Origin: Candidatus Eiseniibacteriota bacterium
GTDB taxonomy: Bacteria > Eisenbacteria > RBG-16-71-46 > CAIMUX01 > WJJG01
NCBI GenBank assembly: GCA_023129715.1
Contig: JAGMBO010000075.1
Coordinates: 1-44,732, forward strand
DNA length: 44,732 nt
Direction of reading: 5' to 3'
The notes beneath the pieces are model-generated. The model was not told where the DNA came from, made no database searches, and was given only the letters and a program-made list of their open reading frames with translations. This document shows, piece after piece, positions 7,495 to 13,443 of the stretch. The position numbers were made by a program, and so were the translations under genes. Every line of letters begins with the position of its first letter. Positions within the stretch are counted from its first letter, which is position 1.

Positions 7495-10400
7495 GTGATG
7501 CCAGGCGAAGATCCGAAAAGGAGCCAGGAAGTCACGGGTCGAGGTTGGAGGTCCCCCCGATCCTCTTCCCGTGAAGAGCACGCCGACCGGGAATTCCCGG
7601 AGGTGGAGCACTTGCTACGCGTCGCGTCGGTCCACCAAGCGGCCGACAACCCGATCGCCGCCCTCGAGGCTCTCGAGCAGGCGGCCGTTTTGTTTGCGGA
7701 GGCCTCGGCGCCGATTGCCCTGCGCGCCGAGGTGATGCTGAAGACCGCCGATTGTCTCCGGCGCCGCGGCCTGCTCGAGGAGGCCCTCGAACAGGCCACC
7801 GCGGTGCTGAGCCTGATCGGTTCCGCCGGCGGTGCGGTGCTGCGCGGCCGTGCGCTCTCCCGCCTCGGCGATATCCAGGGGGGGCTCGGTCGCTACGATG
7901 AGGCCCTCGCTGCTTGCGAGGAGGCCTATCAGCTCCTGCGCTCGACCGACGAGCATGCCGACATCGGATTCCTCGAACTGGCCCGCGGGACGATCCACGT
8001 GCGGCGCGGCGAAGTCGTGCGCAGCCGCGAGTGCTTCGAGAGCGCGCTCTTCTCGTTCCGCCGCATCGATGACCGCGAAGGCATTGCCCTCGCGCTCAAT
8101 GCCCTCGGGCTCGCGCTCAAGAACGGCCCCCACTGGGCCGACGCACGTGATTTCCTCACCCGGGCGCTTGCCGTCAGCGAGGCGGCGGGCAACTACACGC
8201 GGGTGGCGACTCACTCGGTCAACCTGGGGATCCTCTACACAAAGCTCTGCGACTTCGAGTTGGCCGCGCATCACCTCGACCGGTCGGTTTCGATCAACCG
8301 GGAGGTCGGCAACAGCTACGCGCTGGTCAAGGCGCTGTTGGCGAAGGGGTTGATGTACCGCCGCTGCGGACAACTCGAGCGGGCGGCGGCGCTCTATGGC
8401 GAAGCCCTCGAGCTCTGCACCGAGCATGGCTACGGGCGTGAGCTCGTCCTGGGCCATGAATTCGAAGGTGAGTTGCTCGGTGATCAGGGACGCTTCGCCG
8501 ATGCGCGGTCACGGCTGAACGCCGGATTGGATCTCGCCCTCGAAGTCGCCCCCGAGGGCGATCTCGTGCCGGAGATCAAACGGCGCCTCGCGCAGTTCGC
8601 GCTCGCTGAGGGGCAGGCGGAGAACGCGCGCCAGCTGGCGCGTGAGGCTCTGCGTGGGGCTCGGCGGCTGGGCGATAACACCGAGGCGGGAGTGGCGCTG
8701 CGGATTCTCGGGGAGGCCTCCGCGCGCCTGGGCCACGAAATGGCTGCCCGCAGACTGCTGGAACGTTCCCTCGGCCTGCTCGAGCGCACACCCGAACGCT
8801 TCGAACAGGCGCTCTCGCAGGTCGCGCTGGCACGCCAGCTCGCGCGACTCTGGTCGAGCGATCGCGAGGCTGCCGGCGAGGGTAGTCCTGAGCGGGCGGT
8901 CGACCTGATCCAGAAGGCCTGGGCCTTCTTCGCGGGTGTCGATCTGCAAGAGAAGGCGACCGAGGTGCTCGTCGATCTCGCCGATGTGCGGCTCGTGCTC
9001 GGCCAGCTCGATGACGCCTTGCGCGACATCGCCCGCGCCAGCGCCTTGGCGGAGCAGGTCGGGCGACGCGACTTGCTGCGGCGGCTTGAGAGCCTGCGCG
9101 AGCGGCTCGAGGAGCATTCGGCGAGGACGGCGCGGCTGGCGACGCCCGAGGCCGACTTGATCGCCGAGTGGGCCAAGCTTTTCGGGGACAACCAGGCGAG
9201 TGAGGCCTGTCTGCAGAAGATGCTGCAGTTCGTCGCCCAGCGCTTGGAGAGTAGCTCGGCAATGATCGCCGCCCCCGATGGTCAGGGGGGGCATTGTATC
9301 GAAGCGGCCGTCGGCCTCGCGCCCGAGGCGGCGGCGCGAATCCTGCCGATCGTGGCACCCTTGGTCGGGAGCAATGGGATCTGCCTGGCGACCGAGCTCT
9401 CCGCCGACCCGCGCTTCTCCGCTCACGCCGACCGAACCCTCGCCGGGGTCTGTGCGCTGGCCGCGCTCGCCGTGCGGTTGCCCGAGGGCGAGGGGATCCT
9501 CTACCTCGACCGCCGCGATGCGGGTGCGCGCCCCTTCGGTGCCTCGGCGCTGCACATGCTGAGCCTGCTGACCGGCCTGCTCGGGCTCGGGCTCGTCCAG
9601 GTGCGCCGTGAACGGGAGATCGAACGCTCTCGCCGCTCGCGACTCGATGCCACCTCCGTAGGCCCCTTCGCCGACTATCTGACCAGCCATCTTCCGCTCA
9701 AGCAGATGTTCACCCATCTCGCCCGTGTAGGCGAATCACCCGCCAGCATCCTGATCCTCGGCGAGACCGGGACGGGCAAGGGCCTGCTCGCGCAGTGCAT
9801 TCACAGCGCAAGCTCGCGGCGGGAGCGGCCATTCGTAACGGTCAACTGCGCCGCGTTGCCCGAGCCGTTGCTCGAGAGCGAGCTCTTCGGTCACGTGCAG
9901 GGCTCCTTTACCGGGGCGCACCGCAGCAAGCGGGGGCTGTTCGAGGCGGCCGACGGCGGAACCCTGTTGCTCGATGAGATCAGCCGCGCCAGCCTGGCCG
10001 TCCAGGCCAAGCTGCTGCACGTGCTCGACTCGAAGGAAGTGCGCCCGGTCGGCGCGACGCAGGGCAAGCGCGTCGACGTGCGGGTCCTCTGTGCGAGCAA
10101 CGCCGACCTGCGCGAAGCGATCCGCCAGGGGCAGTTTCTTGAGGATCTCTTCTACCGGCTCAATGACTTCAGTGTCCTGCTGCCGCCACTGCGCGACCGG
10201 CGCGAGGACATCCCGCTGCTGTTGACCCACTTCTACGATGAGGCCTGCCGCGAGATGGGGCGCCGCCCGAAGGGCATCGCGCGGGAGGTCATGTCCCTGC
10301 TGCTCGATCACCAGTGGCGCGGCAACATCCGCGAGTTGCTGCAGGTCGTGCGGCGCCTAGTGGCGCTCAGCGAAGACGGCGCTTGGATCACCACCGACCT

Positions 10401-10656
10401 GCTCCCGGCCGATTTCGCCTCGGCGACGCCCGCCGTAGTGCCGCCTGCGGGAGCCCCGATTCCCGTGGGGACGAATGGAGGCGGGCTCCACGGGGCGGTC
10501 GAGCAGCTCGAGAAGAAGATCCTGGCTGCGGCGCTTACCGAGAGCGGGTGGAACCGCTCCGAGGTTGCCCGGCGTCTGGAAATCAGCTACCCGACCGTGC
10601 TCGCCAAGATCAAGCGCTACCGCCTCCATCCACCCGAGGGCAGTGCGAGCCGCTAG
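7495..10656 (+). CDS. Sigma-54-dependent activator with TPR and GAF sensor domains
   Basis: 1053 residues. Residues ~40-540 are tetratricopeptide-type helical repeats, ~560-690 look like a GAF domain, and ~725-955 are a sigma-54 AAA+ domain. Walker A is GETGTGKG at 756, Walker B is LLLDEIS with Asp827/Glu828, and the arginine-finger region is FYRLNDFSVLLPPLRDR. A Fis-type HTH ends the protein (GWNRSEVARRLEISYPTV). The sigma-54 contact loop reads GSFTGA (803-808) rather than GAFTGA; the essential Phe-Thr is kept. The start is GTG 7495 or the adjoining ATG 7498, both behind AGCAGG. There is no receiver domain, so input should come through the TPR or GAF part. A sigma-54-type promoter lies 270 bp past its stop and is the natural target candidate. 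Confidence 0.93.
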   Translation: MMPGEDPKRSQEVTGRGWRSPRSSSREEHADREFPEVEHLLRVASVHQAADNPIAALEALEQAAVLFAEASAPIALRAEVMLKTADCLRRRGLLEEALEQATAVLSLIGSAGGAVLRGRALSRLGDIQGGLGRYDEALAACEEAYQLLRSTDEHADIGFLELARGTIHVRRGEVVRSRECFESALFSFRRIDDREGIALALNALGLALKNGPHWADARDFLTRALAVSEAAGNYTRVATHSVNLGILYTKLCDFELAAHHLDRSVSINREVGNSYALVKALLAKGLMYRRCGQLERAAALYGEALELCTEHGYGRELVLGHEFEGELLGDQGRFADARSRLNAGLDLALEVAPEGDLVPEIKRRLAQFALAEGQAENARQLAREALRGARRLGDNTEAGVALRILGEASARLGHEMAARRLLERSLGLLERTPERFEQALSQVALARQLARLWSSDREAAGEGSPERAVDLIQKAWAFFAGVDLQEKATEVLVDLADVRLVLGQLDDALRDIARASALAEQVGRRDLLRRLESLRERLEEHSARTARLATPEADLIAEWAKLFGDNQASEACLQKMLQFVAQRLESSSAMIAAPDGQGGHCIEAAVGLAPEAAARILPIVAPLVGSNGICLATELSADPRFSAHADRTLAGVCALAALAVRLPEGEGILYLDRRDAGARPFGASALHMLSLLTGLLGLGLVQVRREREIERSRRSRLDATSVGPFADYLTSHLPLKQMFTHLARVGESPASILILGETGTGKGLLAQCIHSASSRRERPFVTVNCAALPEPLLESELFGHVQGSFTGAHRSKRGLFEAADGGTLLLDEISRASLAVQAKLLHVLDSKEVRPVGATQGKRVDVRVLCASNADLREAIRQGQFLEDLFYRLNDFSVLLPPLRDRREDIPLLLTHFYDEACREMGRRPKGIAREVMSLLLDHQWRGNIRELLQVVRRLVALSEDGAWITTDLLPADFASATPAVVPPAGAPIPVGTNGGGLHGAVEQLEKKILAAALTESGWNRSEVARRLEISYPTVLAKIKRYRLHPPEGSASR

Positions 10657-10701
10657 CCGGATTCACCTCCTGTCTCCCGTTCCGCCGCGGGGTTGTCAGG
10701 T

Positions 10702-10715
10702 TGCTTTATAAAGCA
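10702..10715. promoter_or_regulatory. 14-bp perfect palindrome, possible activator site
   Basis: TGCTTTATAAAGCA lies ~220 bp upstream of the sigma-54-type promoter. A second inverted pair, AACCGTTT (10729-10736) and AAACGGTT (10871-10878), lies between them. Sigma-54 activators bind upstream at this range, so these are candidate enhancer sites; binding is not shown. Confidence 0.35.
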
Positions 10716-10925
10716 CGTTTCCATATCTAACCGTTTGCTGTGGATACAGTTGTCGCGTCTAGACTCCAGGCTATCAAGCGCCTTGTCATTTCTGGTCTCG
10801 GATGCCGCTGGCGCATCCCGGCTAGACGACAGGGCGGCACTGCAAACGTCCAACTAACTTGTTGTATTCCAAACGGTTGCCTGGCTGATGCGAAACTTCG
10901 GGGAAGCAGGGGGCACTCGCCGTTG

Positions 10926-10940
10926 TGGCATGCAATCTGC
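10926..10940 (+). promoter_or_regulatory. Sigma-54 (-24/-12) promoter
   Basis: TGGCATG-CAAT-CTGC matches the sigma-54 consensus TGGCACG-N4-TTGC at 13 of the 15 positions (the four N positions included), with the required GG-N10-GC spacing (GG 10927-10928, GC 10939-10940). Transcription would start near 10952. No long ORF follows within 560 bases; a structured segment does. Confidence 0.6.
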
Positions 10941-10951
10941 CATGTAGGTTC

Positions 10952-11200
10952 TGTGGAGGGGGGACCTCCATGAAGACCTCAGGGGCCGGGCGGCACTGAC
11001 TCAGACGGACCGCAGGTAGGGAGTCGAAGGCAGGACCGGTCGGCCTCAGCAGAAAAAGGGGGTAGGCGGCCAGGCGGTGCCAGACCAAAGGATGGGGGAT
11101 GTCCAGGCTGTCCCGGATCTTGGTTCCGCCTACCTCCTTGATCGATACGCAAACCCGAAACCCGCCACCCGATGAGGCCCGCCACCCGGCGGGCCTCGTT
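10952..11200 (+). ncRNA. Candidate sigma-54-driven structured small RNA
   Basis: Between a sigma-54-type promoter and a terminator hairpin lies a ~250-nt segment without a credible gene but rich in pairings. A 5' hairpin is GGAGG 10955-10959 with CCTCC 10965-10969. GACTC 10998-11002 pairs with GAGTC 11021-11025. A 14-bp stem pairs 11056-11069 with 11126-11139 (one G-U), continued inward by ACCAA 11084-11088 with TTGGT 11120-11124, and GAT 11091-11093 with ATC 11117-11119. The last hairpin is the terminator at 11174. A nine-codon frame (10970-10999) starts right after the first hairpin; it could be a leader peptide, with its Shine-Dalgarno inside the hairpin. No known RNA family was recognised. 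Confidence 0.4.
11174..11200 (+). terminator. Terminator-type hairpin
   Basis: GAGGCCCGCC (11174-11183) and GGCGGGCCTC (11188-11197) form a perfect 10-bp stem with a 4-nt loop, followed by GTTCTCT. The T content after the stem is modest. The rest of the gap to 11517 shows no gene; a short stretch near 11310 (CCAAGTTCTCC and a G run) resembles a decayed copy of the repeat found at 34-43 kb. Confidence 0.5.
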
Positions 11201-11517
11201 CTCTGCCCCTCTGTCCTGGTGCCCCACTGCCTCTCCCGGTCCCCTTTGTCCGTCACTCCTGCCGGTCTTCGCATCCATCTCCCCGGAAGGTTTCGTCCCG
11301 AGTCCCTGGGCCAAGTTCTCCAAAGGGGGGAGTGAACACTTCGCCCGCTAGGCGTGTAGTATGATCTGGATCGTTTGGTGGTGGTGGTCGTCGCGGAGCG
11401 CTGCGGGAGGTTCCCGGAGTGGCGACCGCCGAGCATGTGCGCACGGTCGGCGGACGCAGCGGGGTTCGACCCCACCGGCGCCGGCGGCGCTGAGAATCGT
11501 GAGGAAGGAGGCGCGGC

Positions 11518-12417
11518 ATGAGGGCCCACACTGGCGGGACGATGCCTGGAGTCGGAGGCGCCCGGCGCGAGGGAGGTCGGCAGAGATGGTCGCCCCTGAT
11601 CGTTCTGCTTGTCCTCGGGGCGGTCTGCTTGGGTCTCTCGGGGTGCAATGACGACGATGATTGCATCTGCTGCGGCCCGGATACGCGCGCGCCCGCGGCG
11701 CCACGCGGTCTCTACTCGATTACCGGCGACGATGAAGTCATCCTCGTCTGGCTCTCCAACACCGAAGAAGACCTCGCCGGCTACTACGTCTGGTGGAGCG
11801 ATGACTACGCCGGCACCTATCACTTCATCGAAGAAGTCGCCGCCCGCGACTGCTACACGATGGAGTTCATCGATCACGAGGCGGCCAATGGCGAGACCTA
11901 CTTCTACGCCGTCTCGGCCGTCGACTACGCCGGGCACGAGAGCGAGCTGAGCATCGAGGAGGTGTGGGATACGCCCCGGCCCGAGGGCGTCGCCGCGGTG
12001 ACGAGCATGAGTATCGAGTTCGGATTCGAGACGGCGGGTTTCGATCTGAGTGCTCCGACCGCCCACCAGCTGGTGGCGGCCGACAGCCGCCATGCCGACT
12101 TCTACTTCGACGTCGATGAGTTCGGTCCCGTCATCTACGCCGGCAGCCAGTACTACGGCATCGAAGATCTGACCGATATCCAGGACATGGGCTATACCAA
12201 CGATTTCGATGAGATCGACTTCGCTCCCGACAACATCGGCTGGTCGCCGTTGCGCTATGTGGAGGCGGTCGCGGGACACACCTATGTGCTTTTGACGCGC
12301 AACAATCACTATGCCAAGATCCGGCTGCAGGAAGTCCATGCCGACGAGCTCATCTTCCAGTGGGCCTATCAGACCGATGAGTGGAACCAGCAGCTGAAGC
12401 ACCCGGTGGCGCCGTAG
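11518..12417 (+). CDS. Lipoprotein with fibronectin type III-like domain
   Basis: 299 residues. The signal peptide has lipobox LGLSGC with Cys43, so the mature protein should be a lipid-anchored envelope protein. After the anchor comes an unusual stretch of four Asp and then CICC. A fibronectin III-like domain follows at about 55-150 (APAAPRGLYSITGDDEVILV, then AGYYVWWSDD and YFYAVSAVDYAGHES). The C-terminal ~150 residues are rich in Tyr, Asp and Phe and were not recognised. The start at 11518 has AAGGAGG upstream. It is followed after 57 bases by the PorV-like gene, perhaps as one unit. Function unknown. Confidence 0.75.
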   Translation: MRAHTGGTMPGVGGARREGGRQRWSPLIVLLVLGAVCLGLSGCNDDDDCICCGPDTRAPAAPRGLYSITGDDEVILVWLSNTEEDLAGYYVWWSDDYAGTYHFIEEVAARDCYTMEFIDHEAANGETYFYAVSAVDYAGHESELSIEEVWDTPRPEGVAAVTSMSIEFGFETAGFDLSAPTAHQLVAADSRHADFYFDVDEFGPVIYAGSQYYGIEDLTDIQDMGYTNDFDEIDFAPDNIGWSPLRYVEAVAGHTYVLLTRNNHYAKIRLQEVHADELIFQWAYQTDEWNQQLKHPVAP

Positions 12418-12474
12418 CATACAGATCTGGAGCAGGGTCGCGGGGCGGCCGATGCCCTTAGGGTGAGGAGAAGC

Positions 12475-13443
12475 ATGCAAAGCCTCAAACGATCGATCGG
12501 ATGGGCAGCGGCACTTGCCGCCGTTGTCGGCGTGGTGTTCGGCCTGGTCATCGCGCCGGCGGTGCCGGCCGGGGCGGCCACCGGGGTGGCCTTTCTGAAG
12601 AGCGGGGTCGACGCGCGCGCCGCGCTGCTCGGGCACGCGGTGACTTCGAGCGTCGACGATGCCTCCGCCTGCTTCTGGAACCCGGCGGGACTCGCCGCGG
12701 CGGGGCGGCCGGAGCTTCTGCTGACCCACACGGAGAGCTTTGCCGATCTGCGTCACGAGTATTTCGCCGTGACCCAGCCGCTGGGTGAGCTGGGGCCCCT
12801 CGGGGGAGCGGCGACAGCGGGGCTCTCCTTCAATGGTATCTGGACCGACAACCTCGAAGGCTATGACGAGGCGGCCAATCCGACCGGCAGCTTCGGCTAC
12901 TCCGCCTACGAGGCGGCGGTGGCGCTGGGCAGCGAGGTCCGCTGGGGGCTGACCATCGGGGGTTCCTTGAGCTACTTGCGGGAGGACATCGGCAACTACA
13001 GCGCCACCGGCTGGACCGGAGGAGTCGGTGTCCAGTGGAAGCCCGAGGTCTGGGGCGCGGGTGGCGCGCCGGTGAGTTTGGGGCTGGCGGTGCGCAACAT
13101 CGGCCCCGGGATGACCTACATCAGCGAGGAGTTCGAGTTGCCGCTGACCGTGCAGGGCGGCGTCACCTGGACGCACCGACGCCCCGGCCGGGCGAATTCG
13201 GTGCGGATCGCCGCCGAGGTCCGCCACGTGCGCGACGAGGGCAGCGCCTTTCTCGCCGGCGCGGAGTATGGCTTCCTCGATCTGCTCAGCCTCGGGCTCG
13301 GCTACCAGACCGCCCATGACACCCGCGATCTGAGTGTCGGGCTGGGGGCCCACCGGGGCGGCTTCGACCTCCACTGGGCCTATGTGCCGTTCAGCGAGGA
13401 CCTTGGCGACGAGCACCGCTTCTCGCTGCGCGTTGGGCTCTAG
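12475..13443 (+). CDS. PorV/UPF0164-like outer-membrane beta-barrel protein
   Basis: 322 residues. A signal peptide ends near AGAATG. The conserved N-terminal block of PorV/PorQ-type proteins follows: GVAFLKSGVDARAALLGHAV, then DDASACFWNPAGLAAAG. The rest alternates short beta strands (AAVALGSEVRWGLTIGGSLS, LSLGLGYQTAH) and ends in a terminal strand, FSLRVGL. These proteins sit in the outer membrane; PorV itself helps type IX secretion, but many paralogues have no known job. The ATG at 12475 has GAGGAG upstream. The stop lies inside a 35-bp tandem duplication shared with the end of lpxH. Confidence 0.8.
   Translation: MQSLKRSIGWAAALAAVVGVVFGLVIAPAVPAGAATGVAFLKSGVDARAALLGHAVTSSVDDASACFWNPAGLAAAGRPELLLTHTESFADLRHEYFAVTQPLGELGPLGGAATAGLSFNGIWTDNLEGYDEAANPTGSFGYSAYEAAVALGSEVRWGLTIGGSLSYLREDIGNYSATGWTGGVGVQWKPEVWGAGGAPVSLGLAVRNIGPGMTYISEEFELPLTVQGGVTWTHRRPGRANSVRIAAEVRHVRDEGSAFLAGAEYGFLDLLSLGLGYQTAHDTRDLSVGLGAHRGGFDLHWAYVPFSEDLGDEHRFSLRVGL

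Follow-up and report, generated by a model that had tools for sequence, protein, structure and literature searches.

A conserved structured RNA, probably regulatory, behind a sigma-54 promoter and an activator gene in Candidatus Eisenbacteria

The Qrr small RNAs of Vibrio are driven by sigma-54, adjoin the activator gene LuxO, depend on Hfq and are often present in multiple copies. In Pseudomonas, the small regulatory RNAs CrcZ and CrcY are transcribed from sigma-54 promoters, with the activator CbrB binding to upstream sites, and they sequester Crc (PMC6296734). The enterobacterial sRNA GlmY is, according to two reports, sigma-54-dependent, preceded by activating sequences for QseF and genetically linked to this activator; its locus with QseE/QseG/QseF (GlrK/GlrR) includes the lipoprotein gene qseG (PMC6075780, PMC8745638). 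Our search of the literature for RNAs of Eisenbacteria and for structured RNAs under sigma-54 returned nothing relevant.

The stretch of DNA analysed here, the window, is a contig of 44,732 nt from a Candidatus Eiseniibacteriota bacterium. On its plus strand a sigma-54 promoter, TGGCATGCAATCTGC, is situated at 10926–10940 with an exact GG-N10-GC match in the -24/-12 element. From the spacing to the -12 element the transcription start is predicted at 10952. Only a few nucleotides further the 5'-terminal hairpin P1 begins (10955–10969, GGAGG-GGGGA-CCUCC with a G-rich loop), followed in the window fold by a variable middle stem domain, P2 (10980–11047). The 3' hairpin P3 (11052–11144) consists of an outer stem of 14 perfectly complementary base pairs, 11056–11069 (AAGGGGGTAGGCGG) with 11126–11139 (CCGCCTACCTCCTT), and an invariant apical core, CAGACCA...GGGGGAUGUCCAGGCUG; our covariance model of this hairpin, R1, matches it with an E value of 8.5e-22. 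At 11175–11198 the sequence GAGGCCCGCC-ACCC-GGCGGGCCTC forms a terminator-like hairpin with perfect 10-bp pairing and a weak T-run, and comparable hairpins come after P3 in three other genomes (G001, G003, and G004). The promoter, the 5' hairpin, the 14-bp stem and the terminator hairpin had all been named in a preliminary description of this DNA, and each was found as described, the last one with the reservation concerning its T-run. The RNA of the window would be about 200–250 nt long. Its predicted fold is only moderately more stable than that of shuffled sequences (z = -2.55; 4 of 200 shuffles were equally good), and therefore the case for this RNA rests on its relatives. An antisense ORF of 864 aa (10822–13416, minus strand), which spans the RNA together with the genes downstream of it, looks like a spurious, GC-rich frame.

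A syntenic locus was found, always as a single copy, in 44 of the 47 genomes of the class. Forty genomes were recognized by the motif of promoter plus 5' hairpin, which occurs once per genome, and four more by way of the activator gene and an upstream dyad: three genomes of the family f9 whose 5' hairpin is changed, and G006, in which the element reads GG-N10-AC. As to the remaining genomes, in G002 the activator gene reaches the end of the contig, and in G009 and G031 no clear ortholog was found. The layout is common to the loci: a gene for a TPR/AAA+/Fis sigma-54 activator of about 1040 aa on the same strand, a gap of about 200 bp with the dyad, the promoter and then the RNA, whose length ranges from about 140 to 480 nt. 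The GG-N10-GC element is exact in 43 of the 44 loci, as it is in the window, and lies almost always 13–16 nt ahead of the 5' hairpin; the RNA begins with GGAGGGGG(G)ACCUCC in 41 loci, P1 being present in these 41 of the 44.

BLASTN detected homologs within the same family and traces within the same order and class. Besides the -24/-12 element, the loci have in common GGAGGGGGG(G)ACCUCC and the core CAGACYA...GGGGGAUGUCCAGGCUG. With the model R1, members were recovered in further families, all of them with promoter and 5' hairpin; two weak matches (L029 and L030) were false. When the pattern of promoter plus 5' hairpin was run against 84,980 species, it matched at 34 places, 28 of which belong to Candidatus Eisenbacteria, including one record labelled Latescibacterota. 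The remaining six fall here and there in taxa unrelated to one another, which by a rough estimate is about the number expected by chance, and a spread beyond Eisenbacteria was rejected. Likewise, in 385 genomes the P3 model gave matches in the Eisenbacteria class only. A multi-copy mobile RNA is ruled out by the single copy per genome, and a phage-borne element was discarded as viral contigs gave no match to the pattern.

The preliminary description had proposed to look for covariation in homologous gaps, and in the 3' hairpin it was found. Among 25 aligned P3 sequences 86.8% of the cells are paired, compared with 33–44% when the partners were slid against each other; changes on both sides occur in 27 of 29 pairs (16–19 in the slid controls), and the covariation score is 0.613 versus about 0.1. 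This is a model-fitted alignment with at least one mis-hit, L117, and possibly also L118; a seed alignment of six sequences, made with MAFFT without model fitting, agrees with the covariation. Compensatory changes are seen in the RNA bodies of families f7 and f1 as well. The f7 RNA is a molecule of about 135 nt made of P1 and P2 and ending in a T7–9 terminator; it comprises 38 pairs, 97% paired, 9 of them with compensatory changes. In f10, f11, and f9 the counterpart of P2 is a conserved stem of about 90 nt, CUGGGCUAGCCGG...CCGGCUAGCYUGG. Since P1 is nearly invariant in sequence, the support for its pairing is its complementarity together with two of the three f9 genomes, in which P1 is altered and the G-rich hairpin nonetheless kept. 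The stems are maintained in relatives, syntenic homologs of the locus occur across the class, and a chance structure is ruled out by conservation and covariation. From family to family, however, the body of the RNA differs strongly. The families f7, f9, f2, and f3 have lost P3, and, P1 being altered in f9, no single conserved target-binding element is evident. T-run terminators close the RNA in f7, f6, f5, and f9 and in several f10 members.

The large activator gene reported directly upstream is indeed present. It extends over 7495–10656 on the plus strand and ends 270 bp ahead of the -24 box. The encoded protein of 1053 aa combines MalT-like TPR repeats, an AAA+ sigma-54 interaction domain (Sigma54_activat, E 3e-63) and a Fis-type HTH; a receiver domain was not found with Pfam. 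In essentially every locus with enough contig the ortholog lies on the same strand and ends about 200–290 bp ahead of the -24 box. This includes several f10 genomes in which the clustering had the ortholog masked by an antisense ORF. The palindromes noted earlier in the gap proved to be a real element conserved across loci, with the consensus TRTMAA-N5-TTKAYA. In the window this dyad region comprises 10690–10730; the best match, TGTCAGGTTGCTTTATA, is at 10694–10710 (11 of 12 positions), and TATAAAGCACGTTTCCATA is a further one. Relative to the -24 box the dyad stands at about -190 to -230 in most loci, and the mean match is 10.8 of 12 positions compared with 8.3 in shuffled sequences. Exact sites number 29 in the 47 genomes, 14 of them at the RNA locus; in several f10 loci the dyad is weak. 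It lies where a binding site of the activator would be expected and is putatively this site. RpoN is encoded in 45 of the 47 genomes. In the order to which the window belongs, some genomes of the families f1 and f3 carry two divergent rpoN-type genes (G000 on C50 and C138, G003, G004, G006, G009, and G010). As there are many sigma-54 activators per genome (22 matches to the activator P0001 at E ≤ 1e-40 in that of the window), the neighbouring activator can be named only as the probable regulator.

The RNA was compared with known families. A scan with Rfam 15 gave no gathering-level match in the window except a tRNA, and no credible weak match in the window region or in loci from nine of the eleven families of the class, in agreement with the earlier remark that no known RNA family could be recognized. 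CrcZ, GlmY/GlmZ, Qrr, 6S, CsrB and the other Rfam RNAs were rejected on this basis. Hfq (PF17209) was detected in none of the 47 class genomes, the control genomes being positive. This makes a classic Hfq-dependent base-pairing sRNA less likely, and this candidate was dismissed.

We consider it probable that the locus represents a stand-alone gene for a regulatory RNA in Eisenbacteria, driven by sigma-54, controlled by the neighbouring activator and acting in trans. The conserved promoter, structure, synteny and dyad, the single copy and the presence of RpoN argue for this reading, and a covarying RNA without an ORF next to an activator gene with a conserved putative binding site is what an activator-linked sigma-54 sRNA should look like. 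The regulatory RNA under the adjacent activator, as originally suggested, is supported by the joint conservation of promoter, structure and activator neighbour; from these we infer transcription, direct control and action in trans. In such a circuit sigma-54 RNA polymerase would sit in the closed state at the GG-N10-GC promoter until the activator, a protein with a sensor-like TPR part, an AAA+ part and a Fis HTH, binds to the dyad some 190 bp upstream and, in the presence of its signal, opens the promoter. A short structured RNA would be made, of the length given above for the window and for the other loci. The 5'-terminal G-loop hairpin may protect the RNA, and its own 3' hairpin or terminator would end it. 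It could then act in trans by binding a protein or by base pairing via conserved unpaired parts, for which the two G-rich loops and the apex of P3 are candidates.

Alternatively, the structured region could be a long cis-regulatory leader (5' UTR) governing read-through into the next gene at 11518–12417 (plus strand). The product of this gene is secreted or lipoprotein-like and appears, as read from its sequence, to be fibronectin-III-like; no Pfam match was obtained. Homologs of the gene adjoin the RNA in 29 of the 40 clustered loci and the T-run of the window terminator is weak, both of which speak for a leader. However, at many loci the gene is missing, replaced or on the opposite strand, and in the window 310 nt separate the terminator-like hairpin from its start codon. 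The strong terminators of the f7, f6, f5, and f9 RNAs and the separate TGGCAY-N6-TGC sigma-54 promoter that the downstream lipoprotein-like gene often has (for example in G021, G015, f7, and G006) make a cis leader unlikely, and we regard it as rather improbable. A transcript continuing into the 11518 gene had been named as an outcome that would contradict an RNA gene; what is found in relatives are clear terminators, for example with 7–9 T's in f7, and the gene probably lies outside the transcript. A second possibility is that the region acts as DNA only, as a regulatory region under the control of the activator with an incidental transcript. P1 is near-invariant in sequence, as could be expected of a DNA element, and its distance from the promoter is fixed. 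Against this stand the numerous compensatory changes seen in P3 as well as in the RNA bodies of f7 and f1, the position of the structure, which is downstream of the predicted start, and the presence of intrinsic terminators; we regard this explanation as highly improbable. As regards the downstream region itself, the own sigma-54 promoter of the lipoprotein-like gene (L134, L135, L140, and the f7 loci) hints at a larger envelope regulon, and two genes downstream, at 12463–13443 (plus strand), a UPF0164-type outer-membrane protein with weak PorP/PorV-like relatives is encoded, which is often conserved in the vicinity of the locus.

The remaining rival concerns the mode of action. The RNA could be a decoy whose loops, GGGGGA in P1 and ACA-UGGGGGA-UGU in P3, sequester CsrA by the GGA they contain. 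The P3 sequence resembles the CsrA consensus RUACARGGAUGU, a string that occurs in the CsrA literature (e.g., PMC7652899). CsrA is encoded in 34 of the 47 genomes; the f9 genomes have neither CsrA nor Hfq, and both G-rich loops are missing from their RNAs as well. On the other hand, the enrichment of GGA or ANGGA by which a CsrA sponge would be recognized was not found: GGA occurs 327 times compared with 326 in shuffled sequences, and ANGGA is even depleted (47 versus 64, sd 7), which leaves the decoy a minor rival. Moreover, there are two loop sites only, the loops are longer than the canonical hexaloop, and eight genomes have the RNA without a CsrA match, which incomplete assemblies may partly explain. 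We therefore judge a CsrA decoy to be unlikely.

A search beside related activators, also suggested in the preliminary description, had a divided outcome. Full-length activator homologs with 31–36% identity are present in three distant genomes. Downstream of the activator homolog in G183, and likewise in G320 of the same genus, there are a sigma-54 promoter and an RNA-like segment of about 105 nt, 84% conserved and with a terminator. No obvious RNA follows the homolog of G145, and in G181 a sigma factor gene takes this place. The G183/G320 segment (GGCGGGUGAGUAAGCUU...CUCGCC plus terminator; L145:1820–1960 on the minus strand, L152, and L155) has no Rfam match and looks unrelated to the Eisenbacteria RNA. 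Elsewhere in G183 a portion of the segment is repeated with 91% identity over 45 nt. In G181 (L146) the homolog lies just upstream of a gene for a sigma-70-family factor with a sigma-54-like promoter, a possible sigma cascade. The association between activators of this type and an RNA may therefore predate the class, a suggestion that rests on one genus. More tentatively, one may speculate that a regulatory module of two parts, the TPR/AAA+ activator and a sigma-54 RNA dedicated to it, is widespread and extends beyond Eisenbacteria with fast-evolving RNA bodies. Within Eisenbacteria this module would be a core riboregulator, present as a single copy and independent of Hfq, whose mode of action would be new and centred on the 5' and apical G-rich loops.

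Taken together, the RNA seems to represent a new structured family that has been conserved over almost the whole of an uncultivated bacterial class. Promoter, likely regulator and putative binding site can all be read from the sequence, which yields a concrete and testable riboregulatory circuit; none was found for the phylum in the literature searched. The proposed circuit sits in genomes in which Hfq was not detected.

By analogy, the arrangement works like that of a sigma-54 sRNA beside its activator, as in CrcZ/CbrB and GlmY/QseF, the RNA belonging by sequence to neither. With CrcZ/CrcY it shares the sigma-54 promoter under a sigma-54 activator and the near-complete conservation within one clade, but it has no sequence or structure match to them in the Rfam scans, its hosts lack detectable Hfq, and its activator carries TPR repeats, unlike the two-component set-up of CbrA/CbrB. 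GlmY is likewise a sigma-54 sRNA linked to its activator with a lipoprotein gene in the locus, comparable to the lipoprotein-like gene found here; the RNAs are unrelated, however, the GlmY activator is a two-component one, and there is no sign of a RapZ/GlmZ circuit in Eisenbacteria. Like the Qrr RNAs beside LuxO, the RNA adjoins an activator gene, but Qrr RNAs need Hfq, often occur in several copies and show no structural resemblance by Rfam. With CsrA decoys of the CsrB/RsmZ type it has in common a structured RNA with GGA in hairpin loops, whereas GGA is not enriched, the loop sites are only two and no Rfam match exists. The best reading is that the Eisenbacteria RNA combines a known organisation, that of the CrcZ/CbrB and GlmY/QseF type, with a new RNA family.
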